Source: Lachnospiraceae bacterium
Lineage (GTDB): Bacteria; Bacillota; Clostridia; Lachnospirales; Lachnospiraceae
DNA: 40,804 nt
NCBI GenBank assembly: GCA_017436865.1
Contig: JAFSCH010000002.1
Location: 1 to 40,804, forward strand
Direction: 5' to 3'
Position 1 is the stretch's first letter, and each line of letters opens with the position of its first letter. The position numbers were made by a program, and so were the translations under genes. This document shows positions 17,967 through 38,434 of this stretch, one piece after another. The notes below the pieces were generated by a model, which was not told where the DNA came from, made no database searches, and was given only the letters and a program-made list of their open reading frames with translations.

Positions 17967-18029
17967 CATAGTAGACTTCTATGTGTTATGGAAACAAGGT
18001 GTTAACATTATATATGCATAGCGGTATAT

Positions 18030-23139: not shown

Positions 23140-23176
23140 ATGTCGGTAGAAGAATTTGTAAAAATTCTCAAACTTT

Positions 23177-23206
23177 AACAATTCAGAAACATTTGCGTGG
23201 TATACT
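23177..23206 (+). promoter_or_regulatory. AACA-array promoter A (response regulator operon)
   Basis: AACA at 23177 and 23188 (11 bp apart), then -10 TATACT at 23201, 13 bp after the last AACA. There is no -35 consensus. The array begins inside the read-through end of thrS. Confidence 0.75.
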
Positions 23207-23239
23207 GAAATAAAGAATATTTGTGAGGGGGCTTTTGTG

Positions 23240-23911
23240 ATGTTTAAGATATTGCTGCTGGAAGACGATAAAGACCTGAATCAGACCGTATGTACCTTTC
23301 TGAATCAGAATGGTTTTGAAGCAGTTGGCGTACATGAGGCAAATGCAGCCTATGACACGATGTATGGAAATATGTTTGATTTAATCATATCAGATATTAT
23401 GATGCCGGGTATTGATGGCTATGAGTTTGCGAAAACGGTTCGTGAGTTGGACAAGGAGATTCCGATTCTGTTTATGACAGCAAGGGATGATTTTGAGTCG
23501 AAGAAAAAGGGCTTTCGTGCCGGAATTGATGACTATATGATTAAGCCGATTGATTTAGAAGAGCTGTTACTTCGTATCGAAGCATTACTTCGCAGGTCAA
23601 AGATTGCAACCAGTAAAAAGATAGAGATTGGAAGTCTTTGCCTGGATGCCGAGGAGCATACCGCATACTTAAACGAAGAGGAAGTTCCTCTCACGGTTAG
23701 AGAATTTAATCTGTTATATAAGCTGTTATCTTATCCGAAGAAGACCTTTACCCGTTCTCAGCTTATGGATGAATTCTGGGATGCGGAGTCGGCATCCGGC
23801 TCACGAGTGGTTGATGTCTATATGACCAAGCTCCGTGACAAGTTTTCGGAATGTACGGATTTTGAGATTGTTACCGTACATGGATTGGGCTATAAAGCTG
23901 TACTGAAGTAA
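23240..23911 (+). CDS. OmpR/PhoB-family response regulator, probable master of the AACA-array regulon
   Basis: A 223-residue transcription factor. Receiver domain about 1-115 with the acidic pair LLEDD, phospho-acceptor Asp in LIISDIMMPG, T in FMTARDD and KPI. A winged-helix DNA-binding domain of the OmpR type follows (about 130-222; recognition helix region SRVVDVYMTKLRDKF, then GLGYKAV). GAGGGGG lies 8 bp before ATG 23240; a GTG one codon earlier is possible. It sits 10 bp before its partner kinase. Its own promoter carries the 11-bp AACA repeats that recur at five later promoters, so autoregulation is likely (inference). PhoB-family proteins bind 11-bp direct repeats, which fits. Confidence 0.92.
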   Translation: MFKILLLEDDKDLNQTVCTFLNQNGFEAVGVHEANAAYDTMYGNMFDLIISDIMMPGIDGYEFAKTVRELDKEIPILFMTARDDFESKKKGFRAGIDDYMIKPIDLEELLLRIEALLRRSKIATSKKIEIGSLCLDAEEHTAYLNEEEVPLTVREFNLLYKLLSYPKKTFTRSQLMDEFWDAESASGSRVVDVYMTKLRDKFSECTDFEIVTVHGLGYKAVLK

Positions 23912-23921
23912 AAGGAAAGGT

Positions 23922-24974
23922 ATGGTTTTGCATATGAAGAAATTTATTTTGGCAAGCTGGCGTTTTCTGATTATTTTTGGGCTGGTTGCCTTTGTAGTTA
24001 CCTGCAATTTTGTACTGTTTCTGAATATTGCACAATATGAAAAGGCTACAATTCGTGGGGCTGCGATTGTTACGTTTGTAAATGTGTTGGTGATAACGTT
24101 GTTATTTTATCTTGTTGATGGTGTCCGTCGTATGTGGACCGTAACAAGACCGGTAAATCGGATTAAAGATGGCATGAACCGCATGGTTGCAGGCGATTTC
24201 AGTGTGCGAATTCCTTATATCAAGGGCGAAAATAGCAGCAATGAATTCGATGCGATTATCAAGGGCTTTAATGAAATGGCAGCAGAGCTGTCAGGTGTAG
24301 AGACACTGAGAACGGATTTTATTTCGAATGTATCGCATGAGCTGAAAACCCCTCTTTCGGTAATACAGAATTATGCAACCATGCTCCAGACCAAGACACT
24401 TTCCGAGGAGCAGAGAATGGAGTATGCAAGTGCCATTTCCGAGCAGACGAGAAAGCTGTCCAATTTGATTACGAATATATTGAAATTAAACCGTTTAGAG
24501 AATCAACAGATTTATCCGGAAAAGAAAAAATACAATCTGACCGAGCAGTTATGTGAATGTCTTTTGACCTTTGAGCGTGCATGGGAGGAAAAAGACATCG
24601 AGATTGAAACGGATATGGAAGAAGATGTTTTCGTTTCTCAGGATGCAGAGCTTTTAAGCCTTGTGTGGAATAATCTTTTTTCCAATGCGATTAAGTTTAG
24701 CGAGGAAAAGGGTGTCGTTGGAATCCGCTTGAAAAGAGAAAATGGCATGATAATCGTTGAGGTTAGTGACAACGGTTGCGGAATCAGTCCGGAGGTTGGT
24801 TCTCATATCTTTGAGAAGTTCTATCAGGGTGATACCTCACATGCGACACAGGGAAACGGATTAGGGCTTGCGCTCGTAAAACGTGTGATTGATATTGTCG
24901 GTGGAGATATTCATGTGCAGAGTGTCTTAGGTGAAGGAACGACTTTTCAGGTGTGCTTTAAGGAGGAAGTGTGA
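23922..24974 (+). CDS. Sensor histidine kinase, short-loop two-TM type
   Basis: A 350-residue kinase and partner of the regulator before it. Two transmembrane helices (about 14-36 and 46-67) are joined by only about ten residues outside, so signals must be sensed within the membrane or through partner proteins, as in LiaS/BceS-like envelope-stress kinases. HAMP about 68-125; HisKA about 132-200 with the phospho-His in VSHELKTPL; HATPase about 240-348 (NNLFSNAIKFS, VSDNGCGI, GNGLGLALV). The first ATG follows AAGGAAAGG closely; ATG at 23934 is an alternative. Its stop overlaps the next gene by 4 bp. Confidence 0.92.
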   Translation: MVLHMKKFILASWRFLIIFGLVAFVVTCNFVLFLNIAQYEKATIRGAAIVTFVNVLVITLLFYLVDGVRRMWTVTRPVNRIKDGMNRMVAGDFSVRIPYIKGENSSNEFDAIIKGFNEMAAELSGVETLRTDFISNVSHELKTPLSVIQNYATMLQTKTLSEEQRMEYASAISEQTRKLSNLITNILKLNRLENQQIYPEKKKYNLTEQLCECLLTFERAWEEKDIEIETDMEEDVFVSQDAELLSLVWNNLFSNAIKFSEEKGVVGIRLKRENGMIIVEVSDNGCGISPEVGSHIFEKFYQGDTSHATQGNGLGLALVKRVIDIVGGDIHVQSVLGEGTTFQVCFKEEV

Positions 24975-25861
24975 AAAATAAATGGATAAAAATCGCAAAG
25001 CGTCTTCTGTTTCCGCATAAGGCTTTGATTGTTCTTTTTATATTGATTACGATTCCGTTATTGATTTATTCCTTGGGCTATGAGAATGCGAATCCGATTA
25101 TTACCTATGCAAGCTATCTGTTTTCGGCGTACACACTGACGATTTTTGTGGTACAGCTGCCACCTATTGTAAAGTGGGTAAAAAGAGGCTTGTATGCGAA
25201 TTATTACAGCTCGCGGTATTTGTCAGAGCCGTTGCTTCGAGCAAAGATTTCCTTGTATGCAGGCTTCGGAATCAATGTATTATATGCGGTATTTAAGTTT
25301 TTGGCAGGTGTTTATTATCGTTCCTTCTGGCTTGGAGCGATTGCCGTTTATTATATTATTTTAAGTGTGATTCGTTTTGGACTGGTAAAAAGAGAACGAT
25401 ACTTATCAAAGCAGGAAGAGAGCAAGGAAAAACGGCTGCATGAGTTAAAAAGCTATCGTTTTTGCGGCTATCTGATGATTCTGCTTCATATGGCAGTAGC
25501 AGGACTTGTGGTGCAGATGATATGGCAGAATAAGTCTTATAGTTATCCGGGCTTCTTAATCTATGCATTTGCGGCATATTCCTTTTATTGCTTTGGTATT
25601 GCCATCAAAAATATGGTCAAGTATCGCAAGCTGGAACAGCCGTTACTGGCAGCGGCAAAAATGATTTCCTTTGCGTGTGCATTGACTTCTATTTTAGCTA
25701 TGCAGACAGCTATGCTGACGCAGTTTGGAAATGGGCAGGAGTTTTTTGCAAGAATTATGAATTCACTGACGGGAAGTGCAGTATGCTTAACGGTATTTTT
25801 ATTGTCTATTCGCATGATACGAAGAGCAGGACGGGAAATTAAGAAAATTGAGGAGATATAA
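24971..25861 (+). CDS. Eight-TM membrane protein of unknown function in the kinase operon
   Basis: A 296-residue protein with about eight membrane segments (roughly 15-37, 43-68, 96-116, 120-142, 160-184, 190-212, 225-250, 260-285) and basic cytoplasmic loops. I recognise no family. GTG start overlaps the kinase stop (GTGA) behind an AGGAGGAA site, so translation is coupled. Its placement suggests an accessory sensor or effector of the two-component system, which would suit a kinase with almost no outside domain; that is inference. Confidence 0.75.
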   Translation: MKNKWIKIAKRLLFPHKALIVLFILITIPLLIYSLGYENANPIITYASYLFSAYTLTIFVVQLPPIVKWVKRGLYANYYSSRYLSEPLLRAKISLYAGFGINVLYAVFKFLAGVYYRSFWLGAIAVYYIILSVIRFGLVKRERYLSKQEESKEKRLHELKSYRFCGYLMILLHMAVAGLVVQMIWQNKSYSYPGFLIYAFAAYSFYCFGIAIKNMVKYRKLEQPLLAAAKMISFACALTSILAMQTAMLTQFGNGQEFFARIMNSLTGSAVCLTVFLLSIRMIRRAGREIKKIEEI

Positions 25862-25863
25862 AC

Positions 25864-26241
25864 ATGGAAAATAAACAGGAAAAAACATTTCAATATAGCT
25901 ATTCCTCGAAGCAACAGGATGAGGTTGAATCGATTAAACGGAAATACATGCCGAAGCAGGAGGATAAGCTGGAGCAGTTAAGAAAACTGGATAAAAGTGC
26001 AGAGACACCAGGAACCGTAGTTGGCTTGATGCTTGGCATTATCGGAACACTGGTAATGGGAACAGGCATGAGCTGTGTTATGGTATGGACGGATAGTCTG
26101 TTTGTAGTAGGCATTCTTTTGGGTTTACTTGGAATGGTGATGATTGCATCTGCTTATCCGGTATATAAGATGATTACCAAAAAACAAAGAGAGAAGATAG
26201 CACCGATGATTTTAGCGCTGAGTGAGGAGCTGCTGAAATAA
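25864..26241 (+). CDS. Small two-TM protein, paralogue of the one at 36054
   Basis: A 125-residue protein of unknown function. A charged N-terminal half (about 1-48, FQYSYSSKQQDEVESIKRKYMP) is followed by two membrane helices (about 50-72 and 78-100) and a basic tail ending EKIAPMILALSEELLK. About half of its residues match the protein at 36054-36443, including FQY-YS, KEDK-like, PGT, YP-YK and TKKQREKIA. It is last of the four-gene regulator operon, two bases after the previous stop; GAGGAGAT precedes it. A strong terminator follows. Confidence 0.75.
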   Translation: MENKQEKTFQYSYSSKQQDEVESIKRKYMPKQEDKLEQLRKLDKSAETPGTVVGLMLGIIGTLVMGTGMSCVMVWTDSLFVVGILLGLLGMVMIASAYPVYKMITKKQREKIAPMILALSEELLK

Positions 26242-26291
26242 AGGAGGATTGGCAAAGATAGGCTGTAAGCCATACATATAATAAGTAGTTT

Positions 26292-26336
26292 ATATGCCAC
26301 AAATTGAGAAGTTTTTTCAATTTGTGGCATATTTTT
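26292..26336 (+). terminator. Terminator of the regulator operon
   Basis: ATATGCCACAAATTGA (26292-26307) pairs perfectly with 26317-26332, followed by T-rich sequence. Confidence 0.9.
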
Positions 26337-26361
26337 ATTATGCACCATAGAATGGAAATAG

Positions 26362-26478
26362 AGTTTCGAAATTGTAAAAAGTTTAAAGTTTCGAAAGTGA
26401 TATGTAGAATATAATGTATAGAAGGTGGTATAATATATTTAATTTCAAAAGTATAATTATTTTAAAGTTTCGAAAGCG
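26362..26478. repeat. Three AGTTTCGAAA repeats before the DUF4143 ATPase
   Basis: AGTTTCGAAA occurs at 26362-26371, 26387-26396 and 26466-26475; the last two extend to AAAGTTTCGAAAGYG. Each contains the palindrome TTTCGAAA. Two lie upstream of a TG-extended -10 (TGGTATAAT, TATAAT at 26429-26434), and one lies between the transcription start and the start codon, next to the ribosome binding site. They look like operator sites. Confidence 0.6.
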
Positions 26479-26486
26479 GTGAAGAT

Positions 26487-27689
26487 ATGAAGACGATTGT
26501 AAGAGAAAGATATTTAGAAAGAATCAAGGCATTAAAGGATACCCCTGATATAAAGATTATTACTGGAATAAGGCGTTCAGGAAAGTCTAACTTAATGCAA
26601 ACATATATCGAATACTTAAAAAATAAGTTTGAGGATATAAATATTATCTTTATTGATTTTATGGATTTGGATTTTGAAGAAATAAAGGAATACCATGCTT
26701 TACACAAATATGTTGAGACGAGATATGATAAGGAAAAGAAGAATTATTTGTTTGTTGATGAAGTACAGCTATGTCCCAATTTTGAATTAGCAATTAACAG
26801 CTTATATTCTAAAAGTAAGTATGATATTTATATAACCGGGTCAAATGCTTTTTTGCTTAGTGCTGATTTGGCAACGCTGTTTACTGGAAGATACATTGAA
26901 ATTCATATGTTTCCATTCAGTTTTAAGGAATACTGTGAATATTATAGCGAAGAAAAGGATAAAGACAAGTTATTTGAAGACTATTTTATCAAGGGTGGTT
27001 TGGCAGGTTCATATGCATACAACACTGATTTAGATAGGGTGACTTATATAAAAGAAGTATACGAGACTATTGTTAACAGAGACCTAGTACAAAAGTACAA
27101 TCTGCCTGATACACAGGTTCTTCGTCAATTGAGTGAGTTCTTGATGGATAATATAAGTAACTTAACTTCCCCTAATAGGGTGAGTGACATATTGACTGCT
27201 AATGAAGTACCAACAAATCATGTAACAATAGGTAAATATATCAAATATCTATGTAATGCATTTATTTTCTATGATATTAAACGATACGATATAAGGGGAA
27301 AGAAGTATTTAGAAACCTCTGATAAATTCTATCTGTGTGATATCGGAATACGTTACGCAATTTTAGGCAGCCGTAATATGGATTACGGACGAGCATACGA
27401 AAATATGGTCTGTGTAGAACTATTGCGTAGAGGATATGAAGTTTATATTGGAAAACTCTATCAAAAGGAAATCGATTTTGTGGCACAACGTGGTAGTGAG
27501 AAAATATATATTCAGGTTAGCGACAATATATCGAATCAGGATACCTTTGAACGAGAGTACTCTCCATTGCTACAAATAAAGGATGCTTATCCTAAAATGA
27601 TTATTGCGAGAACAAAGCACCCAAAATACACATATGAAGGAATCGAAGTGCGTGACATAGCGGAGTGGTTGTTGAATACAGAGCAATAA
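26487..27689 (+). CDS. AAA+ ATPase with DUF4143 domain
   Basis: A 400-residue ATPase of the large clostridial/bacteroidal AAA_14-DUF4143 family. Walker A is GIRRSGKSN (about 26-34), Walker B LFVDEVQ (about 88-94), sensor TGSNAFLLS (about 114-122), then TLFTGR and PFSFKEY. The C-terminal DUF4143 part holds EIDFVAQRG...IYIQVS (about 330-350), resembling the core of a PD-(D/E)xK nuclease-like fold. The function of this family is not established. It has its own promoter and repeats, not the AACA array, so it looks inserted between regulon genes. The start follows GGTGAAG. Confidence 0.85.
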   Translation: MKTIVRERYLERIKALKDTPDIKIITGIRRSGKSNLMQTYIEYLKNKFEDINIIFIDFMDLDFEEIKEYHALHKYVETRYDKEKKNYLFVDEVQLCPNFELAINSLYSKSKYDIYITGSNAFLLSADLATLFTGRYIEIHMFPFSFKEYCEYYSEEKDKDKLFEDYFIKGGLAGSYAYNTDLDRVTYIKEVYETIVNRDLVQKYNLPDTQVLRQLSEFLMDNISNLTSPNRVSDILTANEVPTNHVTIGKYIKYLCNAFIFYDIKRYDIRGKKYLETSDKFYLCDIGIRYAILGSRNMDYGRAYENMVCVELLRRGYEVYIGKLYQKEIDFVAQRGSEKIYIQVSDNISNQDTFEREYSPLLQIKDAYPKMIIARTKHPKYTYEGIEVRDIAEWLLNTEQ

Positions 27690-27694
27690 GATTT

Positions 27695-27746
27695 AACAAA
27701 ACATTAACATCTCCTGAACATTTCAAAAACATTCAACCTTTATAGT
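27695..27746 (+). promoter_or_regulatory. AACA-array promoter B (epimerase)
   Basis: AACA at 27695, 27706, 27717 and 27728, each exactly 11 bp apart, then -10 TATAGT at 27741, 13 bp after the last. Confidence 0.85.
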
Positions 27747-27810
27747 AAGCTCATGAAAACGAGAAACAAACAATTTTGTGAGTATTATGATAGAAAGGTA
27801 GGATTTTGAA

Positions 27811-28689
27811 ATGAGCAACACAATGTATTTGGTAACAGGAGCAGCAGGATTTTTAGGTGGCACTATCTGCCGTCAGTTAGTGGATAGAGGTGAGAAGGTA
27901 AGAGCCTTCGTTCTTCCAAATGACAAAGCAATGAAGTTCGTTCCAAAGGAAGCAGAAATTGTAGAAGGTGACCTTTGCGATATGGAATCACTTCGCAGAT
28001 TCTTTACCGTACCGGAAGGAACAGAAACAATTGTACTTCACATTGCAAGTATCGTAACGGTTAGCCCTGAGTACAATCAGAAGGTTATGGATGTGAATGT
28101 CGGTGGAACCAAGAATATTATCGAGTTGTGTTTAGAGCATAAGGAGTGTAAAAAATTAGTATATTGCAGCAGTACAGGTGCGATTCCAGAGCTTCCAAAG
28201 GGACAGAAGATTAAAGAAGTAGATCATTTTGATGCAGATAAGGTAGTTGGCTGTTATAGCCAGTCAAAGGCTTTGGCAACACAGGCAGTTCTGGATGCGG
28301 TAAAGGAAAAAGGTTTACATGCTTGCATAGTACATCCGAGCGGAATCCTTGGACCGGAGGACTTTGCTGTAGGTGAGACAACAGGAACGGTAATCCAGAT
28401 TATAAACGGCGAAATGCCAATGGGGATCGACGGCTCCTTTAACCTGTGTGATGTAAGAGACCTTGCACAGGGAACAATTCTTGCAGCAGATAAGGGAAAG
28501 GACGGTAGCTGCTATATTCTTGGAAATAAGGAAGTATCTTTTAAAAAGTTTTCTGAACTTTTGATGGTAGAAAGCGGCTGTAAGCCAATTAAAGCATTCC
28601 TTCCTCTTGGAGTAGCAAATTTTATTGTAGGAGTTCTGGAAAAACAGCTTTATTCAAAAAGGATAAGGCTGTTTTGTTGTATAAGTTAA
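27811..28689 (+). CDS. NAD(P)-dependent epimerase/dehydratase, C-terminally truncated
   Basis: A 292-residue short-chain dehydrogenase of the extended (epimerase / dihydroflavonol-reductase-like) type. The Rossmann motif is TGAAGFLGG (about 9-17); catalytic Ser-Ser-Thr in YCSSTGAIP and the YSQSK Tyr-Lys pair near 150 are intact. Homology stops at about residue 272 (LPLGVANFIVGVLEK). The last 14 residues, QLYSKRIRLFCCIS, are unlike any family end and are encoded by a terminator hairpin. Full-length relatives run some 50 residues longer, so a deletion probably joined the gene to this terminator. GAAAGGTAGG precedes the ATG. It is driven by array promoter B. The substrate is unknown and activity after truncation is uncertain. 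Confidence 0.8.
   Translation: MSNTMYLVTGAAGFLGGTICRQLVDRGEKVRAFVLPNDKAMKFVPKEAEIVEGDLCDMESLRRFFTVPEGTETIVLHIASIVTVSPEYNQKVMDVNVGGTKNIIELCLEHKECKKLVYCSSTGAIPELPKGQKIKEVDHFDADKVVGCYSQSKALATQAVLDAVKEKGLHACIVHPSGILGPEDFAVGETTGTVIQIINGEMPMGIDGSFNLCDVRDLAQGTILAADKGKDGSCYILGNKEVSFKKFSELLMVESGCKPIKAFLPLGVANFIVGVLEKQLYSKRIRLFCCIS
28640..28680 (+). terminator. Terminator inside the 3' end of the epimerase gene
   Basis: AAAACAGCTTTAT (28641-28653) pairs with ATAAGGCTGTTTT (28663-28675) with one G-U pair, ahead of TTTTGTTGT. It lies wholly within the coding sequence, so transcription could stop before the stop codon. Confidence 0.8.
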
Positions 28690-28750
28690 TTGAAAAACAA
28701 CATACTGATAGTTTACAATAGTAGTATCATAATCTAAAGGGGCTGTGTAA

Positions 28751-30862
28751 ATGAAGCAATTCAGAAAAGACAATTTAGCAAAAGATATTTTATCAGGAAT
28801 CATTGTTGCCCTGGTGTCCATTCCGATTTCAATGGGCTATGCGCAGGTTGCAGGCTTACCGGTAACATATGGTCTGTATGGTTCTATCTTTCCGATTTTA
28901 GTTTATAGCCTGTTCACTTCCTCGCCACAGTTTGTATTCGGTGTGGATGCGACTCCGGCTGCCTTGGTAGGAGGAGCGCTTGCAAGTCTTGGTATTACTG
29001 CCGGAACACCGGAGGCAATGGAAATTGTTCCGATTATTACGCTGGTTACGGCATGCTGGCTGTTGGTATTTTATTTTATCAAGGCAGGAAGACTGGTTAA
29101 TTATATTTCCACTCCGGTTATGGGCGGATTTATCTCCGGTATCGGTTGTACGATTATTCTCATGCAGGTTCCAAAGCTATTTGGTGGAAGTCCGGGTACG
29201 GGTGAGTTATTTATCTTGCTTATCAATATTTGGGAGCAGCTGGCGAAGTTTAATCTGGTTTCAGCCATTCTTGGATTTGGTACAGTGATTATTATTTTAG
29301 TAGCAAAGAAACATATTCCAAAGTTTCCGATGTCTGTTGTACTTATGGCGGTTGGCGCAGGACTTACTTATTTTTTCAAAATAGACCAGTATGGGGTAGC
29401 ACTTCTTCCAACTGTGGAAAAGGGAATGCCAAGGCTTGTTTTGCCAAATGTTTCGCTGTTTTTGCAGCATGCAGAGGATATAGTGGTGCTATCGCTTACC
29501 GTAGCATTGGTAATTGTGGCACAGACCTTGCTTGCAACAAATAACTATGCCCTGAAATATAATTATAAAATCAATAACAATCGAGAAATTCTGGCATATG
29601 CAGCTGGAAATACAGCGGGCGCTTTGGTAGGCTGTTGTCCGATTAACGGTAGCGTGTCCCGAACCGGAATTGCAGATCAGTATGGCTGCAAATCACAGGT
29701 GATGTCGGTGTCTGCAAGTGCCACAATGGTAGTGGTGCTACTTTTTGGAACGGATTTATTGGCGTATCTTCCGGTGCCGGTGCTGACGGGAATCGTTATG
29801 GCAGCGCTGATTGGCATTATTGAGTTTGGTATTGCCAAGAAAATGTGGCAGTCTGATAAGCATGAGTTTTTGATTTTCCTGACTGCTTTTCTGGGCGTGT
29901 TGATTCTGGGTACTATTTATGGTGTTATATTAGGGGTAATCTTGTCCTTTATTGCTGTTATTATTCGTGCGGTAATTCCGCCGAAGTCCTTTGTTGGTAT
30001 TATACCGGGGCATGAAGGCATGTATACTCTGACAAGACATCGTGATGCGAAGCCGATTAAGCATACGGTTATTTATCGTTTTAGCGGAAATCTGTTCTTT
30101 GCGAATATCAATACCTTTCAGCAGGATATTGAGTCGGCAATTAAGGAAGATACGAAACAGGTGATTGTCGATGCCAGAGGAATCGGAAATATTGATATTA
30201 CGGCAGCAGACAGATTATTGATTTTAAATCGTAATTTAAGGAATCAGGGCATACACTTTTATATCGCGGAGCATGTAGAGGCAGTAAATGATCAGTTGCG
30301 TGCTTATGGAGCAGGAAGCTTGATTGAAGAGGGCGTGGTACGGCGTACTATTTCTTTGGCACTAAGAGCCGCAGGAGTTGAGAAGCCATATCCTTTAGAA
30401 GGAATTTCTAAGGATGAGGAATTCCCATATGTAGAAGAAAACGAAAGATTGGCAGAGTTCGAATGGGCATTTGGTGAAGGTGCGGAAGCAAAAATGGAAC
30501 AGTTTGCCTTGGAAATGGCAGAGCAGCTTGTTCATTCTGAAGGTCATAGTGTAGAAGACATTGTGGAAGCAGAAAGCGATGTTTTACCGACTCGTATGGG
30601 CTTATTCGATGAGGATGAGTTGTTAGAGCGTCTGGAAATGCATTTAACAGAACTGGAAGAGCAGGGATATGCTGATATCGAAGAAATTGAAGAAAGCATT
30701 GAAAAGAGAAGAAAGATTATTGAGAAGAAGATTGCAAGTTTAAGCCCTGAGGCACTTGAAATGTTAAGACACCATAGAGAAGAAATTGAAGAGCACCTTA
30801 AGGAAGAACATCGGGAGCTTTACGAAAGAATGGTAGAGATAAGAACACATATAGAGAAGTAA
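28751..30862 (+). CDS. SulP-family anion permease with STAS domain and long acidic C-terminal tail
   Basis: A 703-residue transporter. The SLC26/SulP core (about 1-410, GLYGSIFPILVYSLFTSSPQ and 10-14 membrane spans) precedes a STAS domain (about 430-540, FSGNLFFANINTF and VIVDARGIGNIDITAADRL). Unlike most SulP proteins it then has about 150 further residues, very rich in Glu and Lys and predicted helical or coiled-coil (about 555-703). Sulfate, bicarbonate or other anions are possible substrates. AAAGGGG precedes the ATG. Its promoter looks ordinary: TTGAAA (28690), 18 bp, TACAAT (28714). It does not carry the AACA array. A strong terminator follows. Confidence 0.88.
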   Translation: MKQFRKDNLAKDILSGIIVALVSIPISMGYAQVAGLPVTYGLYGSIFPILVYSLFTSSPQFVFGVDATPAALVGGALASLGITAGTPEAMEIVPIITLVTACWLLVFYFIKAGRLVNYISTPVMGGFISGIGCTIILMQVPKLFGGSPGTGELFILLINIWEQLAKFNLVSAILGFGTVIIILVAKKHIPKFPMSVVLMAVGAGLTYFFKIDQYGVALLPTVEKGMPRLVLPNVSLFLQHAEDIVVLSLTVALVIVAQTLLATNNYALKYNYKINNNREILAYAAGNTAGALVGCCPINGSVSRTGIADQYGCKSQVMSVSASATMVVVLLFGTDLLAYLPVPVLTGIVMAALIGIIEFGIAKKMWQSDKHEFLIFLTAFLGVLILGTIYGVILGVILSFIAVIIRAVIPPKSFVGIIPGHEGMYTLTRHRDAKPIKHTVIYRFSGNLFFANINTFQQDIESAIKEDTKQVIVDARGIGNIDITAADRLLILNRNLRNQGIHFYIAEHVEAVNDQLRAYGAGSLIEEGVVRRTISLALRAAGVEKPYPLEGISKDEEFPYVEENERLAEFEWAFGEGAEAKMEQFALEMAEQLVHSEGHSVEDIVEAESDVLPTRMGLFDEDELLERLEMHLTELEEQGYADIEEIEESIEKRRKIIEKKIASLSPEALEMLRHHREEIEEHLKEEHRELYERMVEIRTHIEK

Positions 30863-30870
30863 GAAACGAG

Positions 30871-30911
30871 AAGATTACTGTGAAAGAGATTTCGCAGTAG
30901 TCTTTTTTCTT
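30871..30911 (+). terminator. Terminator of the SulP gene
   Basis: A 15-bp stem (30871-30885 with 30890-30904, two G-U pairs) has a GAGA tetraloop and is followed by TTTTTTCTTT. Confidence 0.9.
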
Positions 30912-30926
30912 TGTAAAAAGCAAATT

Positions 30927-30956
30927 AACATTTCTTTAACATTTCAAAAATATAAG
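30927..30956 (+). promoter_or_regulatory. AACA-array promoter C (papain-like protein)
   Basis: TTAACA repeats give AACA at 30927 and 30938 (11 bp), with -10 TATAAG at 30951, 13 bp after the last AACA. Confidence 0.8.
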
Positions 30957-31021
30957 TTTAACACCTCTTGGATAGGATAATCGTGATAATGAGAAATAAC
31001 ACGTTTAATTCGAGGGTAAAT

Positions 31022-31543
31022 ATGAAACAGGATAAATTAAAAAATATGAAAACGATAACCATATTACTTACTAGATACAAAGATTTTTTCGGGAGAGTAC
31101 TCTGTGACATTGGCGGAGATTCTTATTCCCATGCATCCATATCCATTGATGAGAATGAAGAAATTTTCTATAGCTTTAATAAAAAGGGATTTGTGGTGGA
31201 AAAGCCAAAGAAGTATATGCCAAAAAAGAGAATGCCAGACAGTGCATGTATACGTCTAAAAGTTCCGGAAGAGGTATATTTCAAAATTCAGCAAGAGATT
31301 CAGTTTTTTTTAGAGAGAAAAGAAAAATATTCTTATTCATTATTCGGAACTTTGTTGTGTTTTTTACATATACCGCACAAATTTCATGATAAGTATTTCT
31401 GCTCTCAATTCGTTGCAGAATTATTAGAAAAGGCTGGCGCAGTAGAGCTTAGGAAAGAAGTTTCCTTGTATCTGCCATCGCAGCTGCTATATGGTTGGCA
31501 ATCTATATTTGCAAAAGAAGAAATTGTATTTAATGCAATTTGA
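31022..31543 (+). CDS. Permuted papain-like (NlpC/P60 superfamily, YiiX-like) protein
   Basis: A 173-residue protein from the chosen start. The order of the catalytic residues, His first in YSHASISID and Cys later in YFCSQFVAELL, is that of circularly permuted papain-like enzymes (YiiX/YebB and lipid-acyl or amidase relatives). No signal peptide is seen. GAGGG lies six bases before the ATG at 31022; other in-frame starts (TTG 30968, ATG 30989, ATG 31046) are possible, and the conserved domain begins at MKTITILLTRY (31046). Substrates of the family include lipids, peptidoglycan and peptides, so a role in envelope remodelling is plausible. It is driven by array promoter C. Confidence 0.75.
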   Translation: MKQDKLKNMKTITILLTRYKDFFGRVLCDIGGDSYSHASISIDENEEIFYSFNKKGFVVEKPKKYMPKKRMPDSACIRLKVPEEVYFKIQQEIQFFLERKEKYSYSLFGTLLCFLHIPHKFHDKYFCSQFVAELLEKAGAVELRKEVSLYLPSQLLYGWQSIFAKEEIVFNAI

Positions 31544-31554
31544 GCATTGATTTT

Positions 31555-31584
31555 AACATTTCTTTAACATGACTTTGATATAGT
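31555..31584 (+). promoter_or_regulatory. AACA-array promoter D (plsC remnant and ABC operon)
   Basis: AACA at 31555 and 31566 (11 bp), with -10 TATAGT at 31579, 13 bp after the last AACA. No other promoter is evident before the ABC genes. Confidence 0.8.
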
Positions 31585-31645
31585 GTATACACAAAAACTT
31601 GTATTTTGAGGAGAAGGCAGATAATAAGAGAAGGGCAGCGACTAG

Positions 31646-31771
31646 GTGATAGTACAGCTTCACTACTTAGAGTCGATTTCCTATGAAGAATATCAGGGAA
31701 TGAGTACGACAGAGCTTGCTACAATGGTACGAAGCAGAATCGAAGAAACCGTGAAGAAATACTCGGAGTAA
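31646..31771 (+). pseudogene. 3' remnant of a 1-acylglycerol-3-phosphate acyltransferase gene (plsC-like)
   Basis: A 41-codon open stretch, bounded by TAG at 31643 and TAA at 31769. It translates with ESISYEEYQGMSTTELATMV followed by RSRIEETVKKYSE, which closely resembles the C-terminal end of PlsC acyltransferases (xxPIxxEEYxGMxTxELAxxVxxRIEE). The catalytic HxxxxD and all N-terminal parts are missing. A GAGGAGAAGG site at about 31608-31617 probably belonged to the lost start. A deletion seems to have removed the gene body but left its promoter D and leader, now serving the ABC operon. A GTG at 31646 could start a short peptide, but I see no reason to think it functions. Confidence 0.6.
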
Positions 31772-31812
31772 ATAATTGGTGGAATAAAGATCAATACAAA
31801 GGAGACGAGGGA

Positions 31813-32712
31813 ATGAACGCTATTGAAATCAGAAACTTATCAAAAAGCTTTCGTGGAATGTACGCAGTCGATAATCTGAATATGACAGTTCCGGTCGGAG
31901 CAATCTATGGTTTTATCGGCGAAAACGGAAGCGGCAAATCAACAACGGAAAAGCTTATCTGTGGGCATCTGGTGCCGGATAACGGTGAAATCAGGCTGTT
32001 TGATAAGGATTATACGGATGCCGGAGTCAGAGTGCGAGTAGGCGCTTTGATTGAAAATGCAGGCTGTTTTCCGAATTCCAGTGTGTGGGATAATTTAATG
32101 ATGCAGGCTATTAATCTGGGAATTAAAAATCGTGAGGATGAAATTAGAAGAGTGCTGGAGATTGTCCGTATGGAGGACTCTGCAAAGACCAAATTCAAGA
32201 GCTGTTCTCTGGGAATGAAACAGCGAATCGGTATCGCAATGGCATTGCTTGGGGAACCGGCATTGTTGATTTTGGATGAGCCGATTAACGGCCTTGATAC
32301 AGACGGTATGAGGATTATGAGAGAGATTCTGGTAGACATTACTAAGAATTATGGTTGTACGGTTCTGATTTCTTCGCATATTCTTGGTGAACTGGAAAAG
32401 ATAGCGACTCATTATGGTATTATTCGTCAGGGGAGAATGATTCAGGAAATCAGCGCAGAGGAAATGGAAAGCAGAGCCCGTGTGTTTGTATCTCTAAAGA
32501 CTAAGGATATGAAAGGGGCGAAAGCTGTATTAAAGGCGAAATTTGACAGCGTGAAGGAAGAGGAAGAGTACCTTCGTGTGTATGATGTGGAGGATACCGA
32601 GTCAATTGTTAAGTATCTGTTAGAGAACGGGCATGTGGTAAGTGAGCTTAAGAAAAATAAGATAGGTCTTGAAGAATACTATATTGAGTTGATGTCAAAC
32701 AAGGAGGATTAA
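31813..32712 (+). CDS. ABC transporter ATPase, first of two tandem pairs
   Basis: A 299-residue ATP-binding subunit, of the BcrA/LanF-like type seen in peptide-antibiotic resistance exporters. Walker A GENGSGKST (about 37-45), signature CSLGMKQR (about 136-143), Walker B LLILDEPINGLD (about 156-167), H-loop SSHILGELEK. About three in five residues match the ATPase at 33560. The C-terminal 80 residues are a variable domain. GGAGACGAGGG precedes the ATG. It is 4 bp before its permease partner. Confidence 0.92.
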   Translation: MNAIEIRNLSKSFRGMYAVDNLNMTVPVGAIYGFIGENGSGKSTTEKLICGHLVPDNGEIRLFDKDYTDAGVRVRVGALIENAGCFPNSSVWDNLMMQAINLGIKNREDEIRRVLEIVRMEDSAKTKFKSCSLGMKQRIGIAMALLGEPALLILDEPINGLDTDGMRIMREILVDITKNYGCTVLISSHILGELEKIATHYGIIRQGRMIQEISAEEMESRARVFVSLKTKDMKGAKAVLKAKFDSVKEEEEYLRVYDVEDTESIVKYLLENGHVVSELKKNKIGLEEYYIELMSNKED

Positions 32713-32716
32713 TAAA

Positions 32717-33538
32717 ATGAAAGAATTAAAATTTGAATCTCCTAGCTTTTTTCAAAGATTAAAAGGTATGCTGGGTGTAGATTTTTATCGTTTATTCCAC
32801 ACTCCCATGTTTTATATCTTTTTGGCAATTGCAGCGATTATTCCGGCAATGATTTTAGGCACTACCGGTATGCCGGGACCTGATGGGACTGCTACAGCAC
32901 CTATGTACACCAACACATGGCAGATTATTGCGGCAGATACACCGTTGTATGTGGTGAACAGTATTGCAGAATATGCCAATATGAACATGGTGTTCATTTT
33001 CGGTGGAATCATGGTTTCTATTTTTATAGGACATGATTATAAGAGTGGCTATGTAAAACAGCTTTTTACAACCCATGCGAAGAAGCAGGACTATATGATG
33101 TCCAAAACCATTACCTGCGCTTTTGCAATGGCTTGCATGTGTATTACTTATTTATTGGGAGCTATGGCAGCCGGACTTCTTGTTGGTGCGTCCTTTGAAG
33201 TGAATATGGGTTCTTTGATTTGTGCTATTTTGGGCAAAATGATTATGAGCTTAGGCTGGGCGAGCCTGTATACCTTTCTTAACATTATTTTTAGAAGATT
33301 TTTTGGTATTTCGATTGCCTCATCCTTCTTTTTCGGTACGGGAATTCTGATTATTGGAGCGGCTGCGGTGATTGGAAATAATACCGCGCTTAATATCTTT
33401 TTATATGGCTCTTCGGTGTATGCATGTCTTAGCAGTAATATAGTAACTGTACTTGTATGTCTTGTAATTTCTGTGGTGTGGGCAATTATTTACAATGTAC
33501 TGGGTACCCGCATCCTTTCAAAATGTGATGTGTATTAA
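32717..33538 (+). CDS. ABC transporter permease, first pair
   Basis: A 273-residue membrane subunit with six predicted helices (about 34-52, 95-117, 125-153, 165-187, 200-225, 240-265). TM1 is followed by a loop of about 45 residues outside. The FIGHDYKSGYVKQLF block matches ABC-2 type (LanG/BcrB-like) permeases: (G/S)xDxxxGxxK. GGAGGATTA precedes the ATG. It should pair with the ATPase before it; the exported or removed substrate is unknown, with antimicrobial peptides a reasonable guess. Confidence 0.88.
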   Translation: MKELKFESPSFFQRLKGMLGVDFYRLFHTPMFYIFLAIAAIIPAMILGTTGMPGPDGTATAPMYTNTWQIIAADTPLYVVNSIAEYANMNMVFIFGGIMVSIFIGHDYKSGYVKQLFTTHAKKQDYMMSKTITCAFAMACMCITYLLGAMAAGLLVGASFEVNMGSLICAILGKMIMSLGWASLYTFLNIIFRRFFGISIASSFFFGTGILIIGAAAVIGNNTALNIFLYGSSVYACLSSNIVTVLVCLVISVVWAIIYNVLGTRILSKCDVY

Positions 33539-33559
33539 AAAGGAGGCAAAGGTATTAGT

Positions 33560-34459
33560 ATGAACGCAATAGAGATTAAAAATCTGACAAAAAATTTTGG
33601 TCAAAAGCAGGCTCTTCGTGGTCTTGATATGACGGTTCCGACGGGAGCAATTTATGGTTTTATTGGTGAAAACGGAAGTGGAAAGTCGACAACGGAAAAG
33701 CTTATTTGCGGTCTTCTTGTTCCAAGCGGCGGACAGATTAAGCTGCTTGGACGAGATTATACGGATGCAGATGTAAGAGCAAAGGTAGGTGTCTTAATTG
33801 AAGCTCCGGGATGCTTTCCAAATTACAGTGTATGGAACAATATGATGCTGCAGGCTGCTAATTTAGGCATGAAAAATGCTGAGGAAGAGGTTAGAAAGGT
33901 TCTAAAGCTGGTAAGAATGGAAGGCGCTGCCTCTAACAAATACAAAAACTGTTCTTTGGGTATGAAGCAAAGAATTGGTATTGCCATGGCACTCCTTGGA
34001 AATCCAAAGCTTTTGGTGCTTGATGAGCCAATCAACGGTTTGGATGCAGATGGTATGAGAATCATGAGAGAGGTTCTGGTAGATATCACCAGAGAGGCTC
34101 AGTGTACTGTTGTTATTTCCTCTCATATCTTAGGAGAGCTGGAGAAAATAGCAACGCATTACGGAATTGTCCGTAATGGAAAAATGATAAAAGAAATGAC
34201 GGCACAGGAGTTGGAGGAAAGCTGTCGTACTTATGTGGCACTTCAGACCAAAGAGATGAACAGGGCGAAAGCAATTCTTGCCTGTAAATATTCCCGTGTG
34301 GAGGAAGACGAAGCGGGTTATATCCGTGTTTATGATGCAAAGGAACCGGAAGAGATTGTTACATATCTGTATGAAAACGAAATTCTGGTAAATGAAATAG
34401 GAACTGCCAAGATTGGTCTGGAAGAATACTATATCGATCTCATGAAGGAGGGCAGATAA
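33560..34459 (+). CDS. ABC transporter ATPase, second of two tandem pairs
   Basis: A 299-residue paralogue of the ATPase at 31813, same length and same motif positions: GENGSGKST, CSLGMKQRIGIAMALLG, LLVLDEPINGLD and SSHILGELEK. Divergence is strongest in residues about 215-275. AAAAGGAGG precedes the start with a wider spacing. It lies 21 bp after the first permease and 1 bp before the second. The four genes are a tandem duplication of one ATPase-permease unit. Confidence 0.92.
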   Translation: MNAIEIKNLTKNFGQKQALRGLDMTVPTGAIYGFIGENGSGKSTTEKLICGLLVPSGGQIKLLGRDYTDADVRAKVGVLIEAPGCFPNYSVWNNMMLQAANLGMKNAEEEVRKVLKLVRMEGAASNKYKNCSLGMKQRIGIAMALLGNPKLLVLDEPINGLDADGMRIMREVLVDITREAQCTVVISSHILGELEKIATHYGIVRNGKMIKEMTAQELEESCRTYVALQTKEMNRAKAILACKYSRVEEDEAGYIRVYDAKEPEEIVTYLYENEILVNEIGTAKIGLEEYYIDLMKEGR

Positions 34460-34460
34460 G

Positions 34461-35252
34461 ATGAATTTTGAACATAATAGCTTTGGAAAAAGATTGGGAA
34501 GTATGTTGAAGGTGGACTTTAGAAGAATGTTCACGATGCCGCTGCTTTATATTATGGTAGGTTCCTGTCTCGTAATGCCCATACTGATATTGGTCATGAC
34601 CACAATGATGGACGGTTCCGTTTCCGTAAATCCCCAGACTGGTGTGGAAACCGTAGTGGAAGGCTTTGATAATACATGGCAGGCAATCGGTTCGGTAAGT
34701 GGTACTGCGATGAGCATGGATTTGACCAGTATGTGCAATATCAATATGCTGTACTTTTTCGTAGCAGTGCTTGTGGGACTGTTCGTTTCTCAGGATTTCA
34801 GAAGCGGATATGCCAAGAACCTTTTTACCGTTCGTGCGAAAAAGGGTGATTACATTATAGCAAAGACTCTTGTCGGATTTGTGGGCGGAGCACTTATGCT
34901 CATAGCTTACTTCATTGGTACGATACTTGGCGGAGCAATTTCAGGACTTTCCTTTGATACAGGAACCGCAGGAGTCAGTGGTATTGTCATGTGTATGATT
35001 GCCAAAATCTTTTTGATTTTAGTATTTGTTGCAATTGACCTGCTGGTAAGTGTTGCTGCAAAGCAGAAAACCTGGCTTTCCATTGTAGGTTCGCTTTGTG
35101 CAGGGATGCTGTTATTTACCATGATTCCTATGATAACACCTCTTGATTCTACGATGATGAATGTTATGTTATGTCTGGCTGGAGGTATTTTGTTTAGTGT
35201 AGGGTTAGGTGCGATTAGTAACATAGTATTGAAGAAAACGAGTTTAGTATAA
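34461..35252 (+). CDS. ABC transporter permease, second pair
   Basis: A 263-residue ABC-2 type permease with six helices. FVSQDFRSGYAKNLFTVRAKKGDYIIAKTL lines up with FIGHDYKSGYVKQLFTTHAKKQDYMMSKTI of the first permease (shown here only as matching blocks near residues 108-137). The N-terminal extracytoplasmic loop is larger and more polar than in its paralogue. GGAGGGC precedes the ATG. It closes the four-gene unit, followed by a terminator. Confidence 0.88.
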   Translation: MNFEHNSFGKRLGSMLKVDFRRMFTMPLLYIMVGSCLVMPILILVMTTMMDGSVSVNPQTGVETVVEGFDNTWQAIGSVSGTAMSMDLTSMCNINMLYFFVAVLVGLFVSQDFRSGYAKNLFTVRAKKGDYIIAKTLVGFVGGALMLIAYFIGTILGGAISGLSFDTGTAGVSGIVMCMIAKIFLILVFVAIDLLVSVAAKQKTWLSIVGSLCAGMLLFTMIPMITPLDSTMMNVMLCLAGGILFSVGLGAISNIVLKKTSLV

Positions 35253-35257
35253 GAATG

Positions 35258-35296
35258 AAACATGGAGCGTATCAGATTAATGCGCTCCATGTTTTA
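35258..35296 (+). terminator. Terminator of the ABC operon
   Basis: AAACATGGAGCG (35258-35269) pairs perfectly with CGCTCCATGTTT (35283-35294), then TATATAT. The final T residues lie in the stem and just past it. Confidence 0.85.
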
Positions 35297-35324
35297 TATA
35301 TTCAAAGGAAAATTTGTTACATTT

Positions 35325-35376
35325 AACAAAACTTAAACATTTCCCAAACATCTTCCAAACAACTGCAAGTTAGAAT
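35325..35376 (+). promoter_or_regulatory. AACA-array promoter E (34-residue peptide)
   Basis: AACA at 35325, 35336, 35347 and 35358, each 11 bp apart, with -10 TAGAAT at 35371, 13 bp after the last. Confidence 0.85.
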
Positions 35377-35428
35377 AAACCCATAATCAAGAGAAACAAA
35401 GAAAAAGCAACAAGAAAGGAAGATAGAT

Positions 35429-35533
35429 ATGAATAAGAAGATATTAAAAGTACTATTAGCATTTTCAGTAGCAGGCATCGGCATTGGAATTACTGCATGG
35501 TTTAAGAACCGAAAGAAAAAAATGATAAATTAA
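35429..35533 (+). CDS. 34-residue single-TM peptide
   Basis: A short open reading frame with a clear AAAGGAAG ribosome binding site 7-8 bp before the ATG. The product has a Lys-rich start (MNKKILK), one hydrophobic helix (about 8-24, with the glycine zipper-like GIGIGITAW) and a very basic tail (KNRKKKMIN). It thus looks like a small membrane peptide with both ends positively charged. It has its own four-repeat array promoter upstream, and the next array begins in its stop codon. Function unknown. Such peptides often modulate a sensor kinase or transporter, but nothing here proves it. Confidence 0.7.
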   Translation: MNKKILKVLLAFSVAGIGIGITAWFKNRKKKMIN

Positions 35534-35583
35534 CATTTCTTAAACATTTTACCAACATTTCACAAACAAGTGGAAGTTAAGAT
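35532..35583 (+). promoter_or_regulatory. AACA-array promoter F (small membrane protein operon)
   Basis: AACA at 35532, 35543, 35554 and 35565, each 11 bp apart, with -10 TAAGAT at 35578, 13 bp after the last. The first repeat overlaps the stop codon of the 34-residue peptide. Confidence 0.85.
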
Positions 35584-35646: not shown

Positions 35647-36027
35647 ATGGAAAAGAAAACTTTTATTACTTTAGTTATGAGTGTGATCGGAGGAATGTTC
35701 TTCGCATTAGGAATGTGTATGTGTCTGTTACCTGAATGGAATATGTTCAATGAAGGTGTTGTGTTAGGTGTAATCGGTGCGGTAGAGCTGTTAATCACAT
35801 GGCTCGTACATCGTAAGATGTCAGGAAAACAGCCATTGAAGGTAAATGCCAAGGTTGTCGGAAAGGTTCTTTATGGTATCGTAGCTGCAATCGTATTTGG
35901 TGTAGGAATGGCTATGGTAATGGCATTTGACATGATGATTCAGGGAATTATCGTTGGTGTTGTAGGTATCGTTTTACTCCTTTTCCTCATTCCAATGTGT
36001 GTTGGATTAAAGGATAGTAGCAAGTAG
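35647..36027 (+). CDS. Four-TM small membrane protein
   Basis: A 126-residue protein with four hydrophobic helices (about 7-29, 36-54, 72-93, 97-118), arranged as two similar hairpins; FALGMCMCLL and FGVGMAMVMA occupy like places in each half, suggesting internal duplication. It carries few charges apart from HRKMSGKQPLKVNAK between the halves. No family recognised. GAAAGGAAT precedes the ATG. It is first of a three-gene unit behind array promoter F. Confidence 0.75.
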   Translation: MEKKTFITLVMSVIGGMFFALGMCMCLLPEWNMFNEGVVLGVIGAVELLITWLVHRKMSGKQPLKVNAKVVGKVLYGIVAAIVFGVGMAMVMAFDMMIQGIIVGVVGIVLLLFLIPMCVGLKDSSK

Positions 36028-36053: not shown

Positions 36054-36443
36054 ATGGAACCAGTAATAAATGATAATCAGAGCTTTCAATATACTTATTC
36101 TGCAAAAAGACAGAAGGAAGTGGAAGATATAAGAAAAAAGTATCTTCCTAAGGAAGAGGATAAATTTGAAACCTTAAAAAGACTGGATCGAGATGCTGAA
36201 AAGCCGGGAACAATGGCAGCAATCATAGTTGGTGTAATCGGAGCATTACTCCTTGGAGTTGGAATGTGCTGTACCATGGTCTGGGGAAGCTCTATGATGA
36301 TCTTTATTTTTGGAGTTATTATAGGAATTGTCGGAATTGGAATTGTTTCGATTGCCTATCCATTATATAAAAAGGTAACAAAGAAACAGAGAGAAAAAAT
36401 AGCAGGACAGATTTTAGCATTAAGCGAAGAGCTTTCCTTATAG
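36054..36443 (+). CDS. Small two-TM protein, paralogue of the one at 25864
   Basis: A 129-residue protein of unknown function, with the same plan as its paralogue: polar N-terminal half with FQYTYSAKRQKEVEDIRKKY, two membrane helices (about 54-77 and 82-104), and a C terminus VTKKQREKIAGQILALSEEL. The strong conservation of the cytoplasmic ends and less of the helices suggests that the ends bind something. AGGGAGAAAG precedes the ATG. The pair lies at both ends of the AACA-array region, one copy in the regulator operon and the other behind promoter F. Confidence 0.75.
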   Translation: MEPVINDNQSFQYTYSAKRQKEVEDIRKKYLPKEEDKFETLKRLDRDAEKPGTMAAIIVGVIGALLLGVGMCCTMVWGSSMMIFIFGVIIGIVGIGIVSIAYPLYKKVTKKQREKIAGQILALSEELSL

Positions 36444-36501: not shown

Positions 36502-36795
36502 ATGGCAAAGTCAAAGTTAGTACAGGTAAATAAGAAAATCGAAGAGAGTGTTGTTGGTGGTTACAAGAAGATTGAAGAAGGCGTTGTAGGCGGATTCCAG
36601 AAGATTAGTGATAAGTTTGTAGATAACTATCTGACTAAGGATGGAGAGTCAGTAGAAGAAGCAAAGGCAAGAATTGCAGCAGAACAGAGTGAAAGAGAAG
36701 CAAAGGCAAAACAGGATATGGAAGCAAGAAAGTTAGCGAGTGAAGATATCGTAAAGAGAAATCTCGAAGCAAGCCTGAATGCAGGAAAAAGATAA
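36502..36795 (+). CDS. 97-residue soluble protein with VVGGYKKIEEG repeats
   Basis: A cytoplasmic, highly charged protein. Residues about 9-45 contain three near-repeats of 11 residues: NKKIEESVVGG, YKKIEEGVVGG, FQKISDKFVDN. Eleven-residue amphipathic repeats of this kind can lie on membrane surfaces, as in apolipoprotein- or synuclein-like helices. Residues about 50-97 are Ala/Glu/Lys-rich and helical. I know similar hypothetical proteins from Lachnospiraceae but no function. AAAAAGGAGAAAAG precedes the ATG. It is third of the unit behind promoter F, followed by a hairpin terminator. Confidence 0.75.
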   Translation: MAKSKLVQVNKKIEESVVGGYKKIEEGVVGGFQKISDKFVDNYLTKDGESVEEAKARIAAEQSEREAKAKQDMEARKLASEDIVKRNLEASLNAGKR

Positions 36796-36868: not shown

Positions 36869-38434
36869 ATGAAGAAAACAATCAAAATCAGAAACAAAAA
36901 CGGTGTAAAAGAGCGGGAAATCAATTACATACCGGTTCGTTTTATTATAGCAATTCTGCTGATTATTCTGGAAACGGCAGCAGTCATAGGAATCACCATG
37001 CTTTGCGCCATTTATATTCCATATTTTTACCTTGCTATGTATGCGACACAGATTTTCTGCGTGCTGAAGATTATTAATTCGGAGGAGAATCCGGATTATA
37101 AGATTCCATGGCTTTTGTTTGTATTGATTGTTCCGGTTGCCGGATTTATGATTTACTTCATGTTTTATGATAGAAAGCTGGCAAGAAAGCAGATTAAAAG
37201 AATTCAAAAAATACTGAGTCAGCAGATACATACAAAGGATGAGAAAACCCTAGAAAAATTGAAACAGGAAGACAAGCAGGCTTACTTACAGGCAAATCTT
37301 CTGTGTAAGCTGTCTGATACACATTTATATCAGAATACGACAGCGACCTATTATGACATGGGGGAGAAGCTGTTTCCGGCAATGCTGGAAGACATGAAAA
37401 AGGCAGAGAAGTTTATTTTCCTTGAATACTTCATTATCGAGGAAGGGAATTTCTGGAACAGTATGCTTGATATTTTAAAGGAAAAGGCGGCAGCGGGCGT
37501 AGATGTTCGTGTCGTTTATGATGATGTAGGATGTATAATGACATTGCCGGGGAACTATTATAAAACGCTCAAAAGCTATGGTATTAAGGCAGTCTGCTTT
37601 TCCAGATTAAAAGGGCAGGCGGATAATGAATTCAATAACCGCAGCCACAGAAAAATCATGGTAATTGACGGTAAAGTCGGATACACGGGCGGCGTGAATA
37701 TTGCAGATGAATATATCAATGAGAAGAAGCTCTATGGACTTTGGAAGGATGTAGGAATTCGTTTAGAGGGAGAAGCGGTAGCGCAGCTTACTTCTATTTT
37801 CCTAGTTGATTATGAGTTGAATGTAAAGACACCGGTATCGGAATTTAATCCTTACTTTTGGACTGGTTGTTCGGTGGAGAATGAGGGCTATATGATTCCG
37901 TTTGGTGATGGACCACGCCCGATGTTTAAGCATAGAGTTGCAAAGATTATGCTTATGAATATGCTCAGTCAGGCGCAGGATTATGTGTATATGATGAGTC
38001 CATATTTAATCATAGATAATGAGCTTTGTCAGGCTATTGAAAATGCAGCAATGCGTGGCATTGATGTCAGAATCATCACGCCGCATATTCCGGACAAAAA
38101 GGTAGTCTTTGTCATGACCAGAAGTTATTATAAGAAGCTTACAGATGCCGGTGTTAAGATTTATGAGTTTGAACCGGGCTTTGTACATGCTAAGGTTTAT
38201 ATTTCGGATGATAAGTATGCAATTGTAGGAACGATTAATCTGGATTATCGTAGTCTTGTACATCACTTTGAAAATGGTGTGTGGTTGTATAAGCATAAGG
38301 TACTGGGACAGATTAAAGAAGATATGGAAGAAACCATGAAGAAATCTCTGTATATGACCGATAATATGATAAAGAATACATTAGGACAGCGTTTTATCAG
38401 AGCACTGGTAAGAGCATTATCTCCAATGTTGTAA
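36869..38434 (+). CDS. cls: Cardiolipin synthase (phospholipase D family)
   Basis: A 521-residue membrane enzyme that joins two phosphatidylglycerols into cardiolipin. Two or three N-terminal helices (about 20-45, 48-65, 78-98) are followed by two PLD half-sites. HKD1 is HRKIMVIDGKVGYTGG (about 260-275), and HKD2 is HAKVYISDDKYAIVGTINLD (about 445-464); both HxKx4D motifs are intact. GAGGAGGGG precedes the ATG. It is probably reached by read-through from promoter F past the hairpin at 36811-36844. Raised cardiolipin is a known way to resist membrane-active peptides, which fits the region. Confidence 0.92.
   Translation: MKKTIKIRNKNGVKEREINYIPVRFIIAILLIILETAAVIGITMLCAIYIPYFYLAMYATQIFCVLKIINSEENPDYKIPWLLFVLIVPVAGFMIYFMFYDRKLARKQIKRIQKILSQQIHTKDEKTLEKLKQEDKQAYLQANLLCKLSDTHLYQNTTATYYDMGEKLFPAMLEDMKKAEKFIFLEYFIIEEGNFWNSMLDILKEKAAAGVDVRVVYDDVGCIMTLPGNYYKTLKSYGIKAVCFSRLKGQADNEFNNRSHRKIMVIDGKVGYTGGVNIADEYINEKKLYGLWKDVGIRLEGEAVAQLTSIFLVDYELNVKTPVSEFNPYFWTGCSVENEGYMIPFGDGPRPMFKHRVAKIMLMNMLSQAQDYVYMMSPYLIIDNELCQAIENAAMRGIDVRIITPHIPDKKVVFVMTRSYYKKLTDAGVKIYEFEPGFVHAKVYISDDKYAIVGTINLDYRSLVHHFENGVWLYKHKVLGQIKEDMEETMKKSLYMTDNMIKNTLGQRFIRALVRALSPML

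Follow-up and report, generated by a model that had tools for sequence, protein, structure and literature searches.

Tandem 11-bp AACA arrays as probable operators of an OmpR/PhoB-type regulator of envelope genes in a Lachnospiraceae bacterium

Which protein reads a four-letter word that recurs every 11 bp ahead of six promoters? The question is raised by a 40,804-nucleotide stretch of a Lachnospiraceae bacterium genome (assembly GCA_017436865.1, contig JAFSCH010000002.1, positions 1 to 40,804; hereafter the window), in which AACA arrays lie on the + strand between positions 23177 and 35583. An earlier, sequence-only reading had proposed a single OmpR/PhoB-type activator for all six sites and had nominated the response regulator encoded at 23240, whose own promoter is one of them. 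Both proposals gained support from the comparisons below, and we consider it very probable that the arrays are the operators of this regulator, an OmpR/PhoB type that would activate itself and a group of envelope genes.

A direct sequence check confirmed each of the 18 listed AACA words at its coordinate and found intervals of 11 bp within every array; from the first letter of the final AACA in each list it is 13 bp to the hexamer, in order TATACT, TATAGT, TATAAG, TATAGT, TAGAAT and TAAGAT, as had been claimed. In each promoter the last unit is separated from the -10 by 9 nt. Promoter a (23175..23206; units 23177 and 23188) has an extended -10, TGG-TATACT, and precedes the regulator-kinase operon. 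Promoter b (27693..27746; units 27695, 27706, 27717 and 27728; TATAGT) is located upstream of an SDR gene, and promoter d (31553..31584; units 31555 and 31566), again with an extended -10 (TGA-TATAGT), upstream of the first ABC pair. Promoters e (35323..35376; units 35325, 35336, 35347 and 35358; TAGAAT) and f (35530..35583; units 35532, 35543, 35554 and 35565; TAAGAT) follow. The absence of a -35 consensus also held, with at most 1/6 matches to TTGACA at spacings of 16-18 in the promoters as first given; TTAACA (5/6 to TTGACA) occurs at spacing 20 in promoters a, c and d, too distant for an ordinary -35. Tandem 11-bp repeats, a fixed distance to the -10 and the lack of a -35, by which an OmpR/PhoB-type operator is recognized, are thus all present.

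The remaining array, c, had been read as two units, 30927 and 30938, followed by TATAAG at 30951. All six hexamers exist where they had been placed; TATAAG, however, is probably not a true -10, since a model trained on the window (its 18 units and six -10s, with three consensus TATAAT as pseudo-data) prefers four units ending at TAGGAT (score 40.2) to two units ending at TATAAG (29.7), and 30925-30974 has 1 mismatch to the four-unit pattern. As corrected, promoter c (30925..30978) comprises units 30927, 30938, 30949 (AATA) and 30960, then 9 nt and TAGGAT at 30973. Its imperfect unit fits a trend among relatives, where weakness falls on the second unit counted from the -10: of 82 non-regulator arrays, this unit is exact in 7, the first in 76 and the third in 79. 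With this re-reading, b, c, e and f become four-unit promoters, and a and d two-unit promoters with TGn.

Could such arrays be chance or compositional repeats of AT-rich intergenic DNA? AACA pairs 11 bp apart number 13 on the + strand of the window (12 in the six arrays and one at 17993) and 2 on the - strand, against an expected 1.5 per strand in third-order Markov sequences. By the same yardstick, AACA-N7-AACA-N9-TA occurs 6 times versus 0.135 expected, and three in-step AACA 6 times versus 0.005. On both strands of the 4.2-Mb genome, AACAN7AACAN9TAN3T gives 12 matches, 5 of them in the window, versus 2 in the reversed control, and the exact triple AACA 9 matches (6 in the window) versus 3 in the control. 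The sequence-only reading had agreed to be judged on whether the pattern was equally common at random sites genome-wide, and the outcome favours it. The array observation is real.

Conservation carries the argument further. Among 80 loci (1.36 Mb) holding regulator orthologues at 71-84% identity, a pattern search found AACA-N7-AACA-N9 plus a -10 upstream of the regulator in 70. Within 200 bp upstream of the regulator, period 11 with gap 9 occurs in 68/80 loci, and other combinations in 0-2, except for 12 loci at period 11/gap 11, where we take the -10 to be the one already counted, met in a shifted register. At threshold 18, the window-trained model returned 158 matches on the strand of the regulator, compared with 2 on the opposite one and 2 in the reversed control (148, 2 and 2 once overlapping registers were merged). 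A version of the model blind to the -10 found 73 arrays on the two strands and 2 in the reversed control, and TAnnnT stands at exactly gap 9 in 71 of the 73; elsewhere the counts are 1-5 per gap, apart from 23 at gap 14, which we read as a second register starting at the end of the first. The two promoter classes recur as well. Regulator promoters (n=71, merged) have two units, with an exact third in 1 and TGn in 68, while among the other promoters (n=82, merged) 72 have a fourth unit that is exact or off by one letter, and 14 have TGn.

Counted gene by gene (model threshold 16, within 330 bp upstream; n=79 for the regulator, one locus being too short), a site lies upstream of the regulator in 70/79 loci, of the 126-amino-acid (aa) protein gene in 37/37, of the SDR gene in 3/4 and of the 125-aa gene in 12/72. 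This model found none upstream of the kinase (0/79), the 296-aa gene (0/59), the second ABC ATPase (ABC2; 0/21), the two permeases (0/8 each), the 191-aa gene (0/1) or an AAA gene (0/1).

The arrays also track the regulator between genomes. It is present (E <= 1e-80) in 11 of 36 same-genus genomes, and four-unit arrays, when no more than 1 mismatch is allowed, are found in all 11 of these and in 0/25 of the others (one-sided exact probability 1.7e-9, a statistic that ignores the relatedness of the genomes). Together, the sequence comparisons show the site, its spacing, its link to the regulator and the target genes.

Several observations weigh against this interpretation. The 1-mismatch cut-off of the genus test was set after the list had been seen, and relatedness was left uncorrected; once 2 mismatches are allowed, matches also turn up in 5/25 regulator-less genomes (G015, G017, G028, G034 and G035), and with 3 mismatches in 35/36 genomes overall, partly because a second, unrelated array type exists. 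In 9/79 loci the sequence upstream of the regulator scores below threshold, and no two-unit site lies upstream of the regulator in L148 (78%) or L149 (74%). By the model, sites precede the first ABC ATPase gene (ABC1) in only 4/20 loci, the phospholipase D-like gene in 1/7 and the 97-aa gene in 5/34; some of the site-less orthologues of these three may be located inside operons. Two further counts speak directly for chance: a stricter WWAACA-twice pattern gives 7 matches genome-wide (2 in the window) and 7 in the control, so that this pattern alone is no better than chance, and in 146 genomes of the order the counts of a two-unit pattern were, by eye, no higher than those of its control. Yet the window counts far exceed the Markov expectation, period 11 with gap 9 and the genus co-occurrence stand out, and the model matches are strand-biased and near-absent from the reversed control, with the -10 held at gap 9. 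A chance origin is hardly credible, and the retention of the site upstream of the regulator across the orthologous loci refutes it.

The second array type, TTCACA..ATCACA..ATAACA..AACACA, again with an 11-bp period, was seen upstream of a gene of about 500 aa beginning MYENN (L165, L166, L167 and L168). In 3 of these 4 loci it is followed after 9 nt by a TATANT-like sequence, and matches to its pattern turn up in many same-genus genomes, whether these have the regulator or lack it.

How far does the pairing of regulator and array extend? Across the order, the generic two-unit pattern was discarded as too loose, matching in 115/146 genomes with control counts alike, and the regulator itself is found in 15/146, too few for an association test. 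One two-unit match with an extended -10 (C101:4491) was not taken as a target, as it had no open reading frame (ORF) within 330 bp by the model. Regulators at 61-65% identity retain arrays: nine same-genus loci of this kind have another operon order, with a four-unit array upstream of the 296-aa gene (six identified by the model, and L174-L176 by eye). Upstream of the regulators at 46-59% (n=11) there was no full-match two-unit array and one marginal match, in L144. Other 11-bp-like AAC repeats were seen by eye upstream of the regulators of L143, L144 and L145 (46-48%). The recognition helix reads VDVYxTK in the window regulator and in the array-bearing relatives shown; relatives at 46-52% have VD[VAS]HI-type helices and no two-unit array upstream of the regulator. 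The wing TVHGLGY was dropped as a mark of AACA readers, array-bearing relatives at 61-65% having TVRGLGY. The pair reaches another phylum: plasmid pTS1 of the spirochaete Treponema saccharophilum (L134) encodes a 69% orthologue of the regulator and has a four-unit array 51 nt upstream of a TolC/RND efflux operon, with no array upstream of its regulator.

The regulator gene (23240..23911, +) encodes a receiver (PF00072, 1.1e-24) and a winged helix (PF00486, Trans_reg_C, 4.4e-19), the composition expected of an OmpR/PhoB-type reader; its start was placed at ATG 23240 because relatives align from residue 2. It is followed by a sensor histidine kinase (23922..24974, +; Pfam and hydropathy) with two helices predicted by Kyte-Doolittle analysis at residues 16-34 and 47-65 and a 12-residue loop between them, which would make it an intramembrane-sensing kinase. 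Two membrane proteins come next on the same strand, a 296-aa multi-pass protein kept in the operon (24971..25861; present in 65/80 loci) and a 125-aa protein with two predicted helices (25864..26241; 72/80). For the 296-aa and 126-aa families a Pfam search gave only weak scattered matches, and no family was assigned.

The architecture is familiar. PhoB/PhoP PHO boxes consist of 11-bp direct repeats in tandem, on which the protein sits head to tail in place of a -35, the distance to the -10 being fixed (PMC4415409, PMC2648988, PMC1906773). Could the arrays then be PHO boxes, read by the phosphate regulator of this genome (PhoP/PhoB) and not by the 23240 protein? The same sources describe two 11-bp direct repeats (PMC2648988, PMC4415409) about 10 bp upstream of the -10 (PMC1906773), and PhoB models are among the profile matches of the 23240 regulator. 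Its score against TIGR02154 is, however, 163.2 bits, below the cut-off of 296.2, and in the same-genus genomes the arrays follow this regulator and not phosphate genes. The pstS gene of the genome lacks an AACA array, none being found by the model in the 6.5-kb pstS stretch, and has instead TTTTACA repeats at distances of 11 and 23 bp, with 9 nt between the end of the last repeat and TATTCT; by Pfam, no listed target is a phosphate gene. Because pstS shows other letters in the same layout, the layout is the one known for the family, whereas the letters belong specifically to the 23240 regulator. Unlike the PHO boxes, the arrays have an AACA core and envelope targets, and the system falls outside the phosphate regulon as defined by the PhoB family cut-off and pstS. 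We regard the PHO-box explanation as very improbable and retain the 23240 regulator as the reader.

Other known systems offer partial parallels. BceRS-type systems (PMC3023708) share the two-helix, very short-loop kinase adjoining ABC transporters; the permeases here, however, are ABC2_membrane_4/5 and not the large BceB-like FtsX type with a large outer domain. The lantibiotic self-protection family TIGR03740 is the best NCBIfam match of ATPase 31813 (202.8 bits), which nevertheless stays below the curated cut-off of 309.75, and there are two ATPase/permease pairs here. No lantibiotic synthesis genes were seen among the annotated neighbours. SpaR/NisR boxes are short direct repeats with a period of about 11 bp upstream of regulated promoters; the repeat period is similar, but core sequence and targets differ from those of the arrays.

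Binding, phosphorylation, activation rather than repression, the signal and the protective role of the system are what we infer from these comparisons. The partner kinase 23922 would phosphorylate the regulator, which would bind head to tail on one face of the DNA, on 11-bp repeats centred on AACA. With the start-proximal repeat ending 9 nt before the -10, it would occupy the place of the -35 and recruit RNA polymerase (class II activation). Its own promoter, with two units and an extended -10, should allow some basal expression and positive feedback; the target promoters mostly have four units, lack TGn and show a -10 that is weaker. A protein covering the -35 region might instead mainly repress, or do both, and position alone cannot separate the two. 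Against this, the lack of a -35 hexamer at 16-18 bp and the fixed 9-nt gap (71/73) both fit direct contact with polymerase, and several target -10s (TAGAAT, TAAGAT and TAGGAT) are weak; we hold repression to be unlikely. The genes turned on would encode small membrane proteins and the SDR, together with an amphipathic protein built of repeats, an enzyme resembling cardiolipin synthase and two lantibiotic-protection-type ABC pairs; the regulator probably switches on membrane-protection genes, and we take its probable role to be defence against membrane-active peptides or a similar envelope stress.

The putative targets all lie on the + strand. The SDR/epimerase-like gene (27811..28689) is followed by a SulP-type transporter with a STAS domain (28751..30862), which has no orthologue among the 80 loci, so that its place in the regulon is suggested by the window alone. 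The 191-aa ORF, as listed (30968..31543), has no family by Pfam, and its true start is probably located beyond the TAGGAT -10, on the downstream side. It is followed by two pairs of an ABC ATPase and an ABC-2 permease (31813-32712 and 32717-33538; 33560-34459 and 34461-35252); the permeases are 273 and 263 aa long and match ABC2_membrane_4. A 41-aa ORF (31646-31771) occupies part of the interval from promoter d to the first ABC gene. It resembles the end of a PlsC-like acyltransferase, shares 64% identity with stretches in L177 and L182, and is probably a gene remnant. A possible 34-aa one-helix peptide (35429..35533), with an AAGGA stretch upstream, lies between e and f and had no relative in the loci compared. 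Next come the 126-aa membrane protein (35647..36027) and a 129-aa membrane protein (36054..36443), a paralogue of the 125-aa protein of the regulator operon; the two are homologous, and both queries match the same genes in the loci. The 97-aa protein (36502..36795; present in 34/80 loci) has 11-residue repeats of the KKIEEGVVGGY type, which suggests an amphipathic helix at the membrane surface, and the phospholipase D-like protein, similar to cardiolipin synthase (36869..38434), closes the series.

A literature search of open-licence PMC papers came back without an account of this regulon, weak evidence that none exists. More tentatively, regulator and operator may form a portable pair, an envelope-defence regulon of gut Clostridia not described before, which would pass as a unit from genome to genome and from phylum to phylum and capture the pumps present there; if so, two units with an extended -10 at the regulator against four without it at the targets would order the switch-on of the genes. 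Given the operator rule of AACA at 11 bp, ending 9 nt before the -10, the regulon could be read directly off the raw sequence of many uncultured gut bacteria, and several membrane-protein families that have no Pfam match would be tied to one response. In addition, these promoters might serve as a natural set for learning how direct-repeat copy number and an extended -10 together tune a class II promoter.

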